Shown piece by piece: positions 31,761-38,207 of a stretch of 38,207 bases of DNA. The stretch comes from Terriglobia bacterium (lineage in GTDB: Bacteria > Acidobacteriota > Terriglobia > UBA7540). The stretch is taken from contig JAIQEZ010000034.1 in assembly GCA_020073545.1 (NCBI GenBank), positions 1 through 38,207 on the forward strand, given 5' to 3'. Positions within the stretch are counted from its first letter, which is position 1. The number at the start of each line of letters is the position of its first letter. The notes under the pieces are model-generated. The model was not told the origin of the DNA. It was given only the letters and a program-made list of their open reading frames with translations, and did no database searches. Position numbers and translations under genes: made by a program.

Positions 31761-32807
31761 CTACGCAGTCAAACGGCTTGAGTAGGCCAAAACTCCAATG
31801 GCCAGCATCAGGAGACATACTCCATAGACCATGACCTTCTTGGCGGCGCCGGATGTGGCTCTCCATTCGCCGGTCAGAACGCCCAAAGCGTTGCCGGTGA
31901 GGATCGAGCAGATCAACATCATGGGGTAGCCCAGGAAAGCTCCGAAGCGTCCGATGCGGGTCGCTCCCATCCCGTAAACGACTATGCCCACAGCCCAAAG
32001 GACTCCCATAACAACCGCTCCCAGCCAGTACAGACCCGTTCCTCCCGCCAGAAACTTCTTGAGCGTCATGTTCCGCCGACCGAGATAAATACAATAGCCA
32101 ACGTTTACGAGGTAATTTGAAGTGAATACTAACGCCCAGATGGCATTGGTGGCATTCGTCGGGCTGACGCCCTGCTGGATCGCGGCGTCCGCGATATTCT
32201 GGCCAAAGATAAAACCGAAGTTCACGAGCGCAGACAGAACTCCCGAGGCAAGGCAAAAGAAAAGCCCTATTTTGAAAGGAGTGCGCGGAGAGGAAGCCGT
32301 CAAGTCCCTCAGCCCGGCGGGTTTGAGCGATTCTTCCTTGAGGCTTCCTGCTTTGGCGCACGCCCAAAGTCCCAAAATCATCACCACAATTCCGGCCATC
32401 AGAACAAGCCCGGCGGGTCGCAACAACTGCTCAGGGTACTTCATCAAGAGAGGGACAATGGAGCCGCCAATCGCGACGATGCCCATGATCAGGGAGAGGC
32501 CCAGAGACATTCCGACAGCGGCGATGCCCAACCCGAAGAACACTCCGCCAATTCCCCAACCTGCACCAAAAAGAATGGCGTTGATGATCGCCGTCGAGGA
32601 CGAATGTCCGTAAACGTTAAACAGACCCGGCACCGTGATGATCGCCAGCGGCCAAGGCACAAGAAGAAGCGCCATCAGCGAGCCCGCTCCCCAGGTATTT
32701 TCCCATTGCCACCTGGGCGTGTATTTTAGAAGCAGAGAGTAGCCGCCCTCCATGACTCCGCCCAGGATGATGAGTATCAATCCGATTCCAAGAGAGCTCT
32801 CGGCCAT
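31761..32807 (-). CDS. RhaT-family sugar-proton symporter
   Basis: A 348-residue membrane protein with about ten hydrophobic segments. The blocks K-Y-T-P-R-W-Q-W-E-N-T-W, L-F-G-A-G-W-G-I-G and G-M-S-L-G-L-S-L-I-M-G-I match the L-rhamnose-proton symporter RhaT at the same places. Many homologues are annotated for rhamnose, but the actual sugar cannot be read from sequence. The ATG at 32807 has GGAGG 9 nt upstream. It is separated by 320 nt from the activase gene and may have its own promoter. Confidence 0.85.
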   Translation of the reverse strand: MAESSLGIGLILIILGGVMEGGYSLLLKYTPRWQWENTWGAGSLMALLLVPWPLAIITVPGLFNVYGHSSSTAIINAILFGAGWGIGGVFFGLGIAAVGMSLGLSLIMGIVAIGGSIVPLLMKYPEQLLRPAGLVLMAGIVVMILGLWACAKAGSLKEESLKPAGLRDLTASSPRTPFKIGLFFCLASGVLSALVNFGFIFGQNIADAAIQQGVSPTNATNAIWALVFTSNYLVNVGYCIYLGRRNMTLKKFLAGGTGLYWLGAVVMGVLWAVGIVVYGMGATRIGRFGAFLGYPMMLICSILTGNALGVLTGEWRATSGAAKKVMVYGVCLLMLAIGVLAYSSRLTA

Positions 32808-33127: not shown

Positions 33128-33919
33128 TCACGCCGGAACCGGCTTTCGGATAGGCATATCCGATGCGGCGATGCGCACGGGCACCCTATGTCTCTCGAAA
33201 GGTTCAGCGTTCAGCCGAAGTTCGCGTTGCTCGTCATACAAGGGGCAGAATTTGAGGCCAAGGTTACTGTATTTGCCTCCAGCCGCCCGATTGTAAGGCA
33301 ACAGGTCAACACGCACCAGGCCCGGCAGGTTGCGGACCGTCTCAGCAATTGCGTTCAGGTTCTCATCTGTATCTGTCACCCCCGGCACAAGGGGAACTCG
33401 GATGACAAAGGACGCTCCCAGAGAACTTAACAACCGCAGATTCGAAAGAATCGGCGCGTTGTCTGCGCCCGTGAAATGCCTGTGCGCGGTACTGTCAATG
33501 AGTTTGAGGTCGTAATAGAAGAGATCAACCTTCTCTGCCACTAGACGAAGTGCCGTCTCGGTTCCATCCCCTGAGGTATCGAAAACTATGTGGAGGTTAT
33601 CGAGCCGGTCACACACCTCCGTGACGAATTCCGCCTGTTCTAAGGGCTCTCCACCTGAAAACGTGACGCCACCTTCGTTGGCACGAAGTATGTCCGCCTG
33701 CTCGTTCAGGAGGGCCGCAAGCTCTTCCGAAGTGTAGTCCTTCCCGATAAGCCGATCGCCTGCCTGTCCGTGGATGATCTGCGGATCTCGAATCCAGCCG
33801 TCGGGGTTGTGGCACCACGAACAACGAAGCGGACATCCCTTGAGGAATACGGTGGTTCGGATTCCTGGCCCGTCATGAAGGGCAAATTCCCTGATGTCGA
33901 ACACCACGCCGGACTTCAT
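33128..33919 (-). CDS. Glycyl radical enzyme activase (radical SAM), compact PflA-like type
   Basis: A 263-residue radical SAM protein that would install the glycyl radical on the enzyme encoded just upstream. The start M-K-S-G-V-V-F-D-I-R-E-F leads to H-D-G-P-G-I-R and the cluster motif C29-x3-C33-x2-C36. The SAM-binding G-G-E is in V-T-F-S-G-G-E-P-L. No cysteines lie between C36 and this motif, so the extra ferredoxin-like domain of most GRE activases is absent. The frame is open to 34090, but that part overlaps the GRE gene and is not family-like. It lies 79 nt after the GRE stop. The ribosome binding site is weak. Confidence 0.93.
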   Translation of the reverse strand: MKSGVVFDIREFALHDGPGIRTTVFLKGCPLRCSWCHNPDGWIRDPQIIHGQAGDRLIGKDYTSEELAALLNEQADILRANEGGVTFSGGEPLEQAEFVTEVCDRLDNLHIVFDTSGDGTETALRLVAEKVDLFYYDLKLIDSTAHRHFTGADNAPILSNLRLLSSLGASFVIRVPLVPGVTDTDENLNAIAETVRNLPGLVRVDLLPYNRAAGGKYSNLGLKFCPLYDEQRELRLNAEPFERHRVPVRIAASDMPIRKPVPA

Positions 33920-33998: not shown

Positions 33999-36149
33999 CT
34001 ACATCGCGTAAATGTGGCGGGCGATAACGTGATCCTGATATTCCGGCCCAAGTTCACAGAAATAGCCGCTCCAACCCCAGACGCGCACAATCAGGTTCTT
34101 GTGCTTTTCGGGATGCTTCTTGGCGTCGAGTAGCGTCTCGAGATTCACGGTGTTGAGCTGGAGTTGTTGACACCCGAGCTGTGCGAAGGTCCGTACCAAC
34201 ATTGCGACTTTGCCGACCGCCTCAGCATCGCTGAAGACACTCCCCGAGAGCTCCATGGTGATAGGCCCGCCATTGAACACTCGGCGGTAGGGAATTTTCG
34301 CGAAGGATTGTAGGACGCTTATAGGTCCTCGTATCGGTGCATTGTTCGATGGTGCGAGATTCGCGCTCAAAAACTCGCCCTTCCTCCTCCCCTCGGCGGT
34401 CGCTCCGACGGCCGGCTCCCGCATGCCTTCCTTGCCGCGGGCCAGCCACACGTAATACATCGCCGAACCTGTGCCTGGTCGCACGCGCCCTCCTCGGCCG
34501 TTGTCCTGGATCGCCTCGCAGGCATCGGCGAACCACTCAAACAACTTGGTCATCAGGGCATCAGCCGCTGCATCATTATTGCCGACCTTCGGCCCGTCCT
34601 CTGCGAGCTTGCGGCGAAACGGCTCATATCCCTCGAAGTTCGCCTCCAGCGCCGCGAGCAGTTCCTGCGGCTGCACCGACTTGTCTTCGAAGACGAACCG
34701 GCGGACTGCCGCCAGCGCATCAGCGGCGTTTGCCGAGCCCGCTCCGTGCACGCCGAAATTGTTGTACTTGAGGCCGTGAGAGAGGTCCCGTGCCCGTTCG
34801 AGGCAGCCGTCCATCAACACCGAGTAATAAGGAGCAGGCGGAAGAAACAGCTTGCGGTAAGCGTCGACAAGCTGCTGCAACTGCTGACGAATATCCTCCG
34901 CGGTTCTCTGGCAGATTTGTTCAAAATTCTCGCCCTGACCGAGCCCCTTCCGGATGCCGGCATCAACCGCGGCAGGCATCGACACCGCCCCGATGTTGAC
35001 TACCTCCATACCCTTCCCCGGAATCAAAAATTCCCAGCACGCAGCCACAGCATAGTCCCGCGCGTCCTCCAGTTCATAGCCGTGCTTGACTAGGGCGGGG
35101 ATGATTACGGCATCATTCGAGTATTGCGGGAAGCCGAGTCCCTTGCGCGTGAGCTGGGTCGCCAAGGTCAGCAGCGACAAGTCCGTGTGGGGAGTGAATC
35201 GAAGATTGATTTTCGGATCGATCATGTTCGTATAATGAGCAACCCTGATCGCCATCCAGGTCAACTCATTCACGGCATCGGCGCCATCTCTGCTCGTACC
35301 GCCCAGCATCAGGGATTGCCCGTTGTCACCCTGCTGGACGCCGGGATAAAGGTCGCTGTCTTTGTTGAGGCTTATGAAAAACTCGGCAAGCAGTTCCTCG
35401 GCCGCGGCAAGCGTCAGGCGCCCACTATCGAGGTCCTGTTTGAGATACGGCCACATGTATTGATCAAACCTACCCAGGCCCACGTGATAGTGCCCGCCCA
35501 TCCAGACGACAGCGTGGAGGATCCGCAAGGCCTGCAAGGCCTCGTGGAAGCAACGCGGGCGGTGAGCCGGAACATGCGCCAGTATATCGGCAAGATCGTT
35601 TCGGCCCTGTCTACGGGCTTCCTGGACGTAGCTGTTCGCCAGCGCCAGGACAGCCTCGATCGTTTCAATTGCGCAGTCGAGGAATTCCAGGCTGTCCGGG
35701 TCGTCCTGGACTGACTCCCGAGCTTTCGCTGCCGCCTGCCTTCGACCCTCGAGGCCTTGCGACAACACCATCCCCCAGTTCGCACAAATGTTGCTGATCG
35801 GCCCCAGCTCGTGGAGGGTTCGGTCCTTTGTCAGTTGAGACCAAGTTTGCGGGTCATAGATTGGTGGAACCGTCCTGATTGTGCGCAGAACGACAATGCG
35901 GTCGTCGGACTCAATAACTGGATGTTGCCCCTCCGCCTCGCACATACGGCGAACGAGCCGCGCTGCGCGACGAGGCCACGAGAGTCCGTCCCGGTCGCAT
36001 TCAGATAGCACATCCGGAACTGTGTCTTTCCGGAACCGCTTGTGTTCGCCGTCTCGCACCCGGCTCTTCATTCGATCGAGCCTGTTGGTGTCGAACGCAA
36101 CCAACCAGGGCTCCGCCGCCCCTAACGGCACATCCGACGTCTGTCTCAT
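33999..36149 (-). CDS. Glycyl radical enzyme of unassigned substrate (PFL-like superfamily)
   Basis: A 716-residue GRE. The PFL-like domain contains Q-G-D-N-G-Q-S-L-M-L-G-G at about 273-284. The active-site cysteine is Cys371 in A-A-C-W-E-F, with Glu373 two residues on, the thiyl and base positions of the dehydratase/lyase GREs (usually G-C-V-E). The C-terminal glycyl loop is V-R-V-W-G-W-S-G-Y-F, with Gly692 as the radical site; most GREs have G-Y-S-A or similar. The ATG at 36149 has GAGGAG 8 nt upstream; the open TTG at 36215 lacks one. PFL itself is unlikely, as it has two adjacent cysteines. The substrate cannot be named. It requires anoxic conditions by family. Confidence 0.92.
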   Translation of the reverse strand: MRQTSDVPLGAAEPWLVAFDTNRLDRMKSRVRDGEHKRFRKDTVPDVLSECDRDGLSWPRRAARLVRRMCEAEGQHPVIESDDRIVVLRTIRTVPPIYDPQTWSQLTKDRTLHELGPISNICANWGMVLSQGLEGRRQAAAKARESVQDDPDSLEFLDCAIETIEAVLALANSYVQEARRQGRNDLADILAHVPAHRPRCFHEALQALRILHAVVWMGGHYHVGLGRFDQYMWPYLKQDLDSGRLTLAAAEELLAEFFISLNKDSDLYPGVQQGDNGQSLMLGGTSRDGADAVNELTWMAIRVAHYTNMIDPKINLRFTPHTDLSLLTLATQLTRKGLGFPQYSNDAVIIPALVKHGYELEDARDYAVAACWEFLIPGKGMEVVNIGAVSMPAAVDAGIRKGLGQGENFEQICQRTAEDIRQQLQQLVDAYRKLFLPPAPYYSVLMDGCLERARDLSHGLKYNNFGVHGAGSANAADALAAVRRFVFEDKSVQPQELLAALEANFEGYEPFRRKLAEDGPKVGNNDAAADALMTKLFEWFADACEAIQDNGRGGRVRPGTGSAMYYVWLARGKEGMREPAVGATAEGRRKGEFLSANLAPSNNAPIRGPISVLQSFAKIPYRRVFNGGPITMELSGSVFSDAEAVGKVAMLVRTFAQLGCQQLQLNTVNLETLLDAKKHPEKHKNLIVRVWGWSGYFCELGPEYQDHVIARHIYAM

Positions 36150-36255: not shown

Positions 36256-36551
36256 TAGACTACGGACCTCGAGGATCTTGCGGTAGTCCTCCTTGTTGAG
36301 CTTGGTTACATACGTTCCCCTTTGGGGGTGTTCCTTACAAACCCTTGGTATTCGAGCTCTTTCAAGGCCTCTCGCAAAGTCGGTTGGCCAATTCCTAGCT
36401 TCGAGGCGAGTCGCTGCTCAACCAGGCGTTCTCCCGGCGAGAGAGCCCCGCTGATTATGGCCTTTCGCAGCATGTCACCGGCAGCGTCTGCAGCTGAACG
36501 AACATCAATGCGTCTTAGTTCCCCAATTGATCCCTCTTTGGGCGGAGCCAC
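36256..36551 (-). pseudogene. Truncated, frameshifted GntR/FCD-family regulator
   Basis: The frame from a GTG at 36551 (GGAGG 10 nt upstream) encodes a GntR winged helix: L-R-K-A-I-I-S-G-A-L-S-P-G-E-R-L-V-E, then Q-P-T-L-R-E-A-L-K-E-L-E. It stops after 81 residues in a changed frame at T-P-K-G-E-R-M. One base of shift at about 36316 restores G-T-Y-V-T-K-L-N-K-E-D-Y-R-K-I-L-E-V-R, the normal linker and start of the FCD ligand domain, which then stops at 36256. So both a one-base loss and a deletion of the FCD domain are seen. An 81-residue DNA-binding stub might still be made. Confidence 0.8.
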
Positions 36552-36605
36552 GGCGTTGGAACCTCCTCGTGTGGCGGTCGCATCGATTGCCTTACCGCCA
36601 TCTCT

Positions 36606-36750: not shown

Positions 36751-38207
36751 ATGGATTATTCACGTAGGGAATTCATGCGGGGTCTGTCTGCCCTGGGTAT
36801 GACTTCGCTGGCTCCGTCTGCGGCCTTGGCCAAGCCCGCCGCAACCGCCTTGGGGAAAGCTCCCTCGACGTCGACTTTCGCGGAATGCCATTCACTGCTG
36901 CCAATCCCACTGTCGCAAGTAGTCCTAGAAGACGAGTTCTGGAGCCCTAAGAGGAAGGTCTGGCAGGAAGTGACGATCCGCGACTGTTTCCAGAAATTTG
37001 AGAATGACCGCGGCGGGGCTCTGAACAATTTCGATAAAGTGCGGGATGGTGTCCGGGGTGGACATGCCGGACCGCCCTGGTATGACGGTCTGATCTACGA
37101 AATGATCCGTGGCGCCTCGGACTTCCTCGCCACGCAACCTGATCCGGAGCTTGACCGGCAACTGGATGGGTACATTGCGCGCATTGCAGCCGCGGCGGCC
37201 AAGGATCCGCATGGGTATCTCAATACCTTCACCCAGCTTGACGAGCCAACCCACCGGTGGGGGCTGAACGGCGGATTGCAGTTGTGGCAGCATGAAGTCT
37301 ACAACGCAGGCGCGCTGGTGGATGCGGGGGTGCATCACTATGAAGCCACCGGCAAGACGACTCTTCTGGCGGTCGGGGTGAAATTCGCCAATCATATGAC
37401 TGAGATCATGGGCCCGCCACCCAAGAAAGCCATTGTCCCCTGCCATCCGCTTCCAGAGGAAGCCCTGGTGGGGCTCTACGAACTGTTCCGCGACGAACCC
37501 GGTCTGAAGCATAAGGTTCCGCTGCCGGTGGACGAAACCGCGTATCTGCGGCTTGCCGAGTTCTGGATCGACGACCGCGGTCACAACATTGGAAAGCCGG
37601 ATTGGGAAAAGGACCGGCACGCCGCGGAGGAGTTCATCCGCAACCAAGAGTATGGGGATGGCCGGCCCTCCTGGGGAGCCTATGCCCAGGACGATAAGCC
37701 TGTCGTGGAGCAGATGGATATCCACGGGCACGCGGTCCGAGCGGCGCTGCTTTGTGCCGGATTATCAGCCGCGGCCAGAGTTGACCACCGGGAAGATTAC
37801 TCCCAAGCCGCGCTGCGCCTCTGGGAAAGTATGGTCTTGCGGAGAATGCATGTTACCGGCGGTGTGGGAGCCTTCGCGCAGGAGGAGAAGTTTGGAGCAG
37901 ATTACGTCCTGCCCAACGACGCGTATTTGGAAACCTGCGCAGCCGTGGGCGCTGGCTTCTTCCATCAGAACATGAACCGACTGTTCGGAGAGGCGCGTTA
38001 TGCCGACGAGCTGGAGCGCACCCTGTATAACGGAGCTCTGGCGGGAGTCTCCCTGAAAGGCGACACCTATTTCTACGAGAACCCGTTGGAATCTGGACCG
38101 AACCGCACGCGCTGGGTTTGGCATGAGTGCCCATGCTGTCCACCGATGTTCCTGAAGCTGATGGGTGCAATGCCCGGGTACATCTACGCCGCGGATTACG
38201 ACAGCGT
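36751..38207 (+). CDS. GH127 family glycosidase (beta-L-arabinofuranosidase-like) with Tat signal, partial
   Basis: The first 485 residues are visible; the gene runs off the right edge. The N-terminus has a twin-arginine motif S-R-R-E-F-M-R-G-L, a hydrophobic stretch and an A-L-A cleavage site near residue 27, so export through Tat is likely. The catalytic layout of GH127 is complete: Glu379 in E-E-K-F-G, Glu394 and Cys396 in Y-L-E-T-C, and Cys460, Cys462 and Cys463 in H-E-C-P-C-C-P-P. These match Glu322, Glu338, Cys340, Cys415, Cys417 and Cys418 of Bifidobacterium HypBA1, with Cys462 as nucleophile and zinc bound by the Glu/Cys group. Substrate is inferred from the family. It is divergent from the GntR/GRE operon. 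Confidence 0.92.
   Translation, partial: MDYSRREFMRGLSALGMTSLAPSAALAKPAATALGKAPSTSTFAECHSLLPIPLSQVVLEDEFWSPKRKVWQEVTIRDCFQKFENDRGGALNNFDKVRDGVRGGHAGPPWYDGLIYEMIRGASDFLATQPDPELDRQLDGYIARIAAAAAKDPHGYLNTFTQLDEPTHRWGLNGGLQLWQHEVYNAGALVDAGVHHYEATGKTTLLAVGVKFANHMTEIMGPPPKKAIVPCHPLPEEALVGLYELFRDEPGLKHKVPLPVDETAYLRLAEFWIDDRGHNIGKPDWEKDRHAAEEFIRNQEYGDGRPSWGAYAQDDKPVVEQMDIHGHAVRAALLCAGLSAAARVDHREDYSQAALRLWESMVLRRMHVTGGVGAFAQEEKFGADYVLPNDAYLETCAAVGAGFFHQNMNRLFGEARYADELERTLYNGALAGVSLKGDTYFYENPLESGPNRTRWVWHECPCCPPMFLKLMGAMPGYIYAADYDS

Follow-up and report, generated by a model that had tools for sequence, protein, structure and literature searches.

A glycyl radical enzyme family with a predicted eliminase active site and recurrent arabinofuranosidase-family neighbors

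Contig JAIQEZ010000034.1 of a Terriglobia bacterium (Acidobacteriota; assembly GCA_020073545.1), analyzed here as a window of 38,207 nucleotides, encodes an oxygen-sensitive glycyl radical enzyme (GRE) that, as judged from alignments and trees, represents a separate, long-stemmed family in anaerobic bacteria of many phyla, with no characterized member among the GRE groups compared. We assign a probability of about 0.5 to its being an eliminase with which anaerobes use L-arabinose derived from plant arabinofuranosides, where the substrate is deduced from gene neighborhood and co-occurrence and bond, product and pathway are proposals. The family and its arabinose setting appear to be new, whereas the C-x-E eliminase motif and sugar-acting GREs were already known.

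The GRE gene is intact, extending on the minus strand from an ATG at position 36149, which is preceded by the ribosome-binding (Shine-Dalgarno) site GAGGAG, to a stop codon ending at 33999, and encoding 716 residues (Table 1). The product exceeds the Pfam cut-offs for the PFL-like (3e-94) and Gly_radical (6e-19) domains. Its AlphaFold2 model (pLDDT 91.8, pTM 0.92) is matched best by PflD (Z 40.4, rmsd 2.3 Å over 673 residues), the other best fits being glycerol dehydratase (Z 39.9), propanediol dehydratase, and CutC; the solved GREs are approximately 17–28% identical to the window enzyme. Both domains, the barrel fold, the invariant C371 and G692, and a cognate radical-SAM activase assign the protein to the GRE superfamily. 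The fold, thiyl cysteine, paired glutamate (E373), and C-terminal glycine that the first-pass annotation had read from the sequence are confirmed by these domains and residues and by superposition of the model on PflD.

Table 1. Features of the window around the GRE gene
Feature	Position	Strand	Evidence
Glycyl radical enzyme, CWEF/WGWS family, 716 aa	33999..36149	-	Pfam, AlphaFold2 model, clade
Cys loop C371-W372-E373 (thiyl Cys and predicted eliminase Glu, C-x-E)	35031..35039	-	Invariant in alignment A1
Thiyl Cys371 codon	35037-35039	-	Sequence
Glu373 codon	35031-35033	-	Sequence
Gly692, glycyl radical site, in VRVWGWSGYF	34074..34076	-	Invariant column; aligned to Gly loop of solved GREs
GRE activase (radical SAM), 263 aa, CPLRCSWC cluster	33128..33919	-	TIGR02494 213.6 bits, cut-off 174
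RhaT-like sugar/proton symporter	31761..32807	-	PF06379 9e-27; below NCBIfam RhaT cut-offs
GH127 beta-L-arabinofuranosidase-family protein, Tat-like N terminus	36751..38205	+	PF07944 1.6e-82
GntR/FadR-like regulator remnant, helix-turn-helix part	36258..36600	-	Reading frames; assigned by eye

The active site places the enzyme, by prediction, among the GRE eliminases. In these enzymes C-x-E is the conserved signature of the Cys loop, and its glutamate usually deprotonates a substrate hydroxyl (PMC8473560, PMC7077986); the loop found here, C371-W372-E373, carries this signature, and C371, E373, and G692 are invariant in alignment A1. Since C-x-E is a known eliminase signature, the motif marks elimination and does not call for a new kind of reaction. 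The motifs had been described as unusual, which holds for the Trp at x, for the residues around it, and for the W-G-W-S glycyl loop of the clade (in place of A-G-Y-S), but not for Cys-x-Glu itself, which is standard for eliminases.

The residues lining the pocket differ more widely. Profile alignment puts Asn120 (invariant) and Asn385 (nearly invariant) at the positions of His164 and Asp447 of glycerol dehydratase, which we take to be substrate-binding residues of its active site; the loss of this pair would at any rate fit a leaving group unlike that of diol dehydratases. H222, at the His281 position of glycerol dehydratase, is kept in the window and in most members, with Q in L088 and L in L163. 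The loop that bears the packing residue Phe333 in glycerol dehydratase (PMC7077986) is shortened to GVQQGDNGQS, in which Q272, G274, D275, G277, and Q278 are invariant in alignment A1. Because the GDNGQS stretch is rich in invariant polar residues and replaces the Phe loop, it would suit a polyhydroxylated substrate. K313, T631, and E633 are clade-specific, the reference GREs having Asn/Ser, Asn, and Lys/Arg, respectively, at these positions. Modeling and pocket comparison, which the first-pass annotation had proposed as a check, gave a fold like that of PflD and glycerol dehydratase and a pocket that appears distinct from that of every GRE family compared.

In a profile search, every NCBIfam GRE equivalog model scored at less than half of its cut-off. 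The rejected assignments include HypD (NF043068, 258.5/1100 bits), CutC (TIGR04394, 253.2/1050 bits), the sulfopropanediol dehydratases HpsG/HpfG (251.8 and 237.7 against 1000 bits), HPAD and indoleacetate decarboxylase (both far under the cut-offs), and formate C-acetyltransferase (PFL; TIGR01255, pyr_form_ly_1, 56.5/994 bits), for which A-C-W-E also stands where a Cys-Cys pair is expected. Assignment to PflD/YbiW was rejected as well, since both E. coli proteins lie outside the clade and the PRK09983 formate C-acetyltransferase model reaches 265/1109 bits. The profile match to the isethionate sulfite-lyase IslA (PDB 7kq3, 301 bits), an enzyme marked by the pocket residues Arg189, Gln193, Trp374, and Arg678, ranks below those to glycerol dehydratase and PflD; the X-succinate synthases (BSS, MasD), which carry out radical addition to fumarate, match more weakly (205–236 bits), and none of their accessory subunits was seen near the gene.

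The B12-independent glycerol/1,2-propanediol dehydratases score highest of the solved structures in the profile comparison (405.7 bits) and share with the window enzyme C-x-E and, mostly, the His281 position. They differ from it in the longer loop replaced here by GDNGQS, in the Gly loop (W-G-W in the clade), and in the His164/Asp447 pair, the feature on which this assignment failed; no microcompartment or diol genes were seen near the clade GREs. The trans-4-hydroxy-L-proline dehydratase HypD is likewise a C-x-E eliminase, and HypD-like proteins are the nearest GREs in the search of the host phylum (up to 38% identity), but the HypD-like pocket-column residues are not common to the clade. The Cys loop of two HypD-like GREs (L006 and L009, in genomes G006 and G020) reads C-V-T (GCVTISAFGKES) where C-x-E is expected, so that the eliminase Glu is lost, and a separate GRE group from Planctomycetota and Clostridia (L099, L106, L110) has a GCDE Cys loop (GCDEITVHGQWGRCNGG).

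PflD and YbiW are described, in PMC12441222 on Ma et al. 2024 and in the titles of PDB 8id0 and 8id7, as GREs of E. coli and Streptococcus that cleave anhydrohexitol phosphates by ring opening (1,5-anhydromannitol-6-P and 1,5-anhydroglucitol-6-P). Sugar-acting GREs therefore already have a precedent on that account, and the earlier view of a sugar setting as atypical of these enzymes does not stand. Both share with the window enzyme the GRE fold, C-x-E, sugar-uptake neighbors, and a sugar substrate, the last being deduced for the window enzyme. On the other hand, PflD (27% identity) and YbiW (26%) have the AGYS glycyl loop, keep an active-site His where the clade has Asn, and act on a phosphorylated hexitol; their genes have those of a PTS or of FsaA aldolase as neighbors, where the clade has arabinofuranosidases.

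A scan of genome contigs recovered approximately 60 relatives at 38–75% identity in Planctomycetota, Lentisphaerae/Victivallales, Chloroflexi, Verrucomicrobia, Spirochaetes, Synergistaceae, Clostridia, and Bacteroidales, together with one further Acidobacteriota relative (Bryobacterales, 68% identity); the phylum-wide ortholog search had returned just the HypD-like GREs. The window GRE and 82 full-length relatives (38–72% identity) form one clade (83 members, support 0.986) on a stem 1.13 substitutions per site long, in a tree that took in HypD-like proteins, PflD, YbiW, and GREs other than IslA, BSS, and HPAD. No characterized enzyme of the groups compared fell within this clade; such a placement would have overturned the earlier proposal of a new class. 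Across an 87-sequence alignment, AACWEF and VRVWGWSGYF show almost no exceptions (locus L044 reads AGCWEP), and because of this conservation the A-C-W-E and G-W-S motifs are neither a local mutation nor the result of a frameshift or sequencing error. A literature search, with most subscription journals outside its coverage, found no paper on a GRE of this clade and no GRE tied to arabinose.

The distribution of the clade is sparse, which suggests spread by horizontal transfer. Its GRE occurs in 1 of 301 genomes of a Chloroflexota sample, in 2 of 248 genomes of the class of L037 (Sedimentisphaerales), and in 33 of 198 genomes of Lentisphaeria, the class of L038. Within the window's own order it is confined to this genome among 40, and none of the eight other genomes of the genus has it.

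The arabinose link comes from the neighborhoods of the relatives. A GH51 alpha-L-arabinofuranosidase gene lies within approximately 6 kb of the GRE in 9 of 50 genomes (0.35 expected), and GH51 or GH127 in 11 of 50 loci (0.94 expected), with expectations derived from the GH51/GH127 counts of the 50 GRE genomes and loci treated as independent; the loci concerned are spread over four or more separate branches of the tree. Both families include members with other specificities. GH51 adjoins the GRE at L037, L040, L049, L055, L087, L162, L164, L167, and L169, and GH127 is near it in the window and at L051, L087, L073, and L074; in three genomes (G1017, G1026, and G1041) the GRE-adjacent GH51 is the sole clear one. 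The arrangement at L087 reads GH127, CUT2 ABC transporter (binding protein, ATPase, permease), activase, GRE, GH51, GH51, where the best-scoring model for the ATPase is AraG (535 bits, below the cut-off of 689). L037 and L040 share this order with a LacI regulator added and GH127 missing; L055 has the transporter and GH51, L051 has GH127 and LacI, and L049 has GH51 directly upstream. The four Lentisphaeria loci (L162, L164, L167, and L169; 40–43% identity) have an intracellular-type GH51 immediately before the GRE, which at L167 exceeds the cut-off for "arabinosylfuranosidase ArfA" (660.6 against 625). The check on homologous neighborhoods proposed earlier thus returned repeated arabinofuranosidase-family genes, along with recurring AraG-like sugar ABC transporter genes.

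Against the arabinose reading, approximately three-fourths of the loci lack arabinose genes in the surroundings of the GRE. Relatives from the rumen and from Victivallales often have it alone or amid housekeeping genes, and no downstream enzyme is common to the loci compared. Uroporphyrinogen-decarboxylase-like or B12-binding corrinoid proteins were observed near the GRE at L034, L039, L044, L046, L047, and L061, mostly in Chloroflexi; they would suggest methyl transfer, but their occurrence is scattered. Another sugar-linked GRE was noted on a Chloroflexota plasmid (L178, CP069395.1), where a different GRE and its activase lie in an operon with an allose-type ABC transporter and a ROK gene.

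In the window itself, the sugar symporter and the glycosidase named in the first-pass annotation were both verified, as a RhaT-like and a GH127-family protein. The GH127 gene (36751-38205) is divergent from the GRE and cut by the contig end; an aceric acid/rhamnogalacturonan-II theme was discarded for it (aceric acid hydrolase model, 188/950 bits). Between GRE and GH127, the GntR/FadR-like remnant has a frameshift near 36320, is cut short at 36258, and misses its ligand-binding domain, which points either to decay or to truncation combined with an assembly error.

The activase gene lies 79 bases downstream of the GRE, with the RhaT-like transporter gene next after it, and an activase adjoins the GRE in most relative loci. 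Activases of the clade (the window, L062, L064, L065, L071, L073, L076, L079, L080, L094, L101, and others were compared) come in two builds: one has approximately 76–89 residues with 7–10 Cys between CxxxCxxC and GGxTFSGGE, so that an auxiliary [4Fe-4S] domain is present, and the other has 34–46 residues with 0–2 Cys and lacks it. The window activase (46 residues, no Cys) is of the second build, without the auxiliary [4Fe-4S] ferredoxin insert. The auxiliary domain seems to have been lost more than once among the clade activases.

Genome content was compared in Lentisphaeria by tests that count genomes as independent and ignore kinship. GH51 is present in 23 of 33 genomes with the GRE and in 38 of 165 without it (P = 5e-7). 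Among the GH51-positive genomes, AraA occurs in 1 of 23 with the GRE vs. 13 of 38 without (P = 0.01); over all 198 genomes the exclusion is not significant (2/33 vs. 30/165, P = 0.12). Because kinship is ignored and many of the genomes with both AraA and GH51 may belong to one lineage, we treat the AraA contrast as a lead. On the opposing side, a strong AraA match was found in 5 of 33 GRE genomes, and an isomerase route could be provided by the FucI-like isomerases that show up as weak matches to AraA. The window's genome has 6 GH51 and 10 GH127 matches and no AraA match. Compared with the AraA-AraB-AraD route and its AbfA (GH51), the clade clusters share an arabinofuranosidase, an arabinose-type ABC transporter, and LacI/AraC-type regulators, but hold a GRE and activase and no AraA.

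Since the GRE is found repeatedly beside genes that release arabinose from plant cell walls, its reaction is probably a deoxygenation of arabinose or of a closely related compound, along a hitherto undescribed route. In the proposed mechanism, the neighboring radical-SAM activase would place a radical on Gly692, which would generate a thiyl radical on Cys371; this would abstract hydrogen from a hydroxyl-bearing carbon of L-arabinose (likely the furanose) or of an immediate derivative. Deprotonation of that hydroxyl by Glu373 would give a ketyl radical, and the adjacent C–O bond would break, either releasing water or opening the ring ether in the manner of PflD/YbiW. The product radical would retake hydrogen from Cys371, yielding a deoxy-keto or deoxy-aldehyde sugar. 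Activation, thiyl formation, and deprotonation rest on conserved residues and knowledge of the superfamily, and the link to arabinose on neighborhood and co-occurrence. A more specific version, which we advance tentatively, would make this an undescribed first step, a radical dehydration or ring opening of free, unphosphorylated L-arabinofuranose that replaces the AraA route in anaerobes of several phyla.

Several other readings were weighed against an arabinose eliminase. The enzyme might be a dehydratase of an open-chain, arabinose-derived polyol (arabinitol, xylitol) or a short diol, forming a deoxy-aldehyde that is then reduced as an electron sink. Glycerol dehydratase as top profile match, C-x-E, the H222 retained in the window, and a glycerol kinase gene with a glycerol-1-phosphate-dehydrogenase-like gene near L043 point this way; yet Asn120 and Asn385 replace the His/Asp pair, H222 is not strictly kept, microcompartment genes were not seen, the loci have no alcohol dehydrogenase in common, and the L043 locus is interrupted by a transposase, so that we consider this reading doubtful. 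An eliminase for another furanose or plant-wall sugar, with arabinofuranosidases nearby since the same polysaccharides carry arabinose, would agree with the GH4, GH32, GH2, GH20, GH28, and GH123 family genes near some members and with transporters that vary by locus (CUT2, CUT1, sugar porter, RhaT-like). It appears unlikely given that no other hydrolase is repeated as often as GH51, which recurs in distant sub-clades (59–66% and 40–43% identity).

The 38% identity to a HypD-like protein, the best in the phylum search, could point to a divergent member of a characterized family (HypD, PflD/YbiW, CutC, or another), which the separate clade, the differing family-specific residues, and the low NCBIfam scores render quite improbable. 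A C–C lyase similar to PFL or to the decarboxylases, instead of an eliminase, is scarcely to be expected: pyruvate formate-lyase and the arylacetate decarboxylases belong to the same superfamily, but the PFL Cys-Cys pair is missing, the corresponding models score far under their cut-offs, and C-x-E is present. The earlier suggestion of a sugar-derived substrate and a new functional class is thus upheld in part: the separate clade, the scores below cut-offs, the distinct pocket, and the arabinose linkage speak for it, whereas the standard C-x-E does not imply a new type of reaction.

A function has yet to be assigned to many of the GREs that are abundant in the gut (PMC11574389). The present analysis delineates one coherent GRE family of more than 80 members, recognizable by the signature AACWEF...N and VRVWGWSGYF, with a testable substrate class. 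The mixed activase builds within this single family offer a natural comparison for the role of the auxiliary domain. If the arabinose reading is true, the label "pyruvate formate lyase" on such genes would be wrong, and anaerobes of plant-fiber habitats would possess a radical pathway for a pentose that ranks among the most common in plants.
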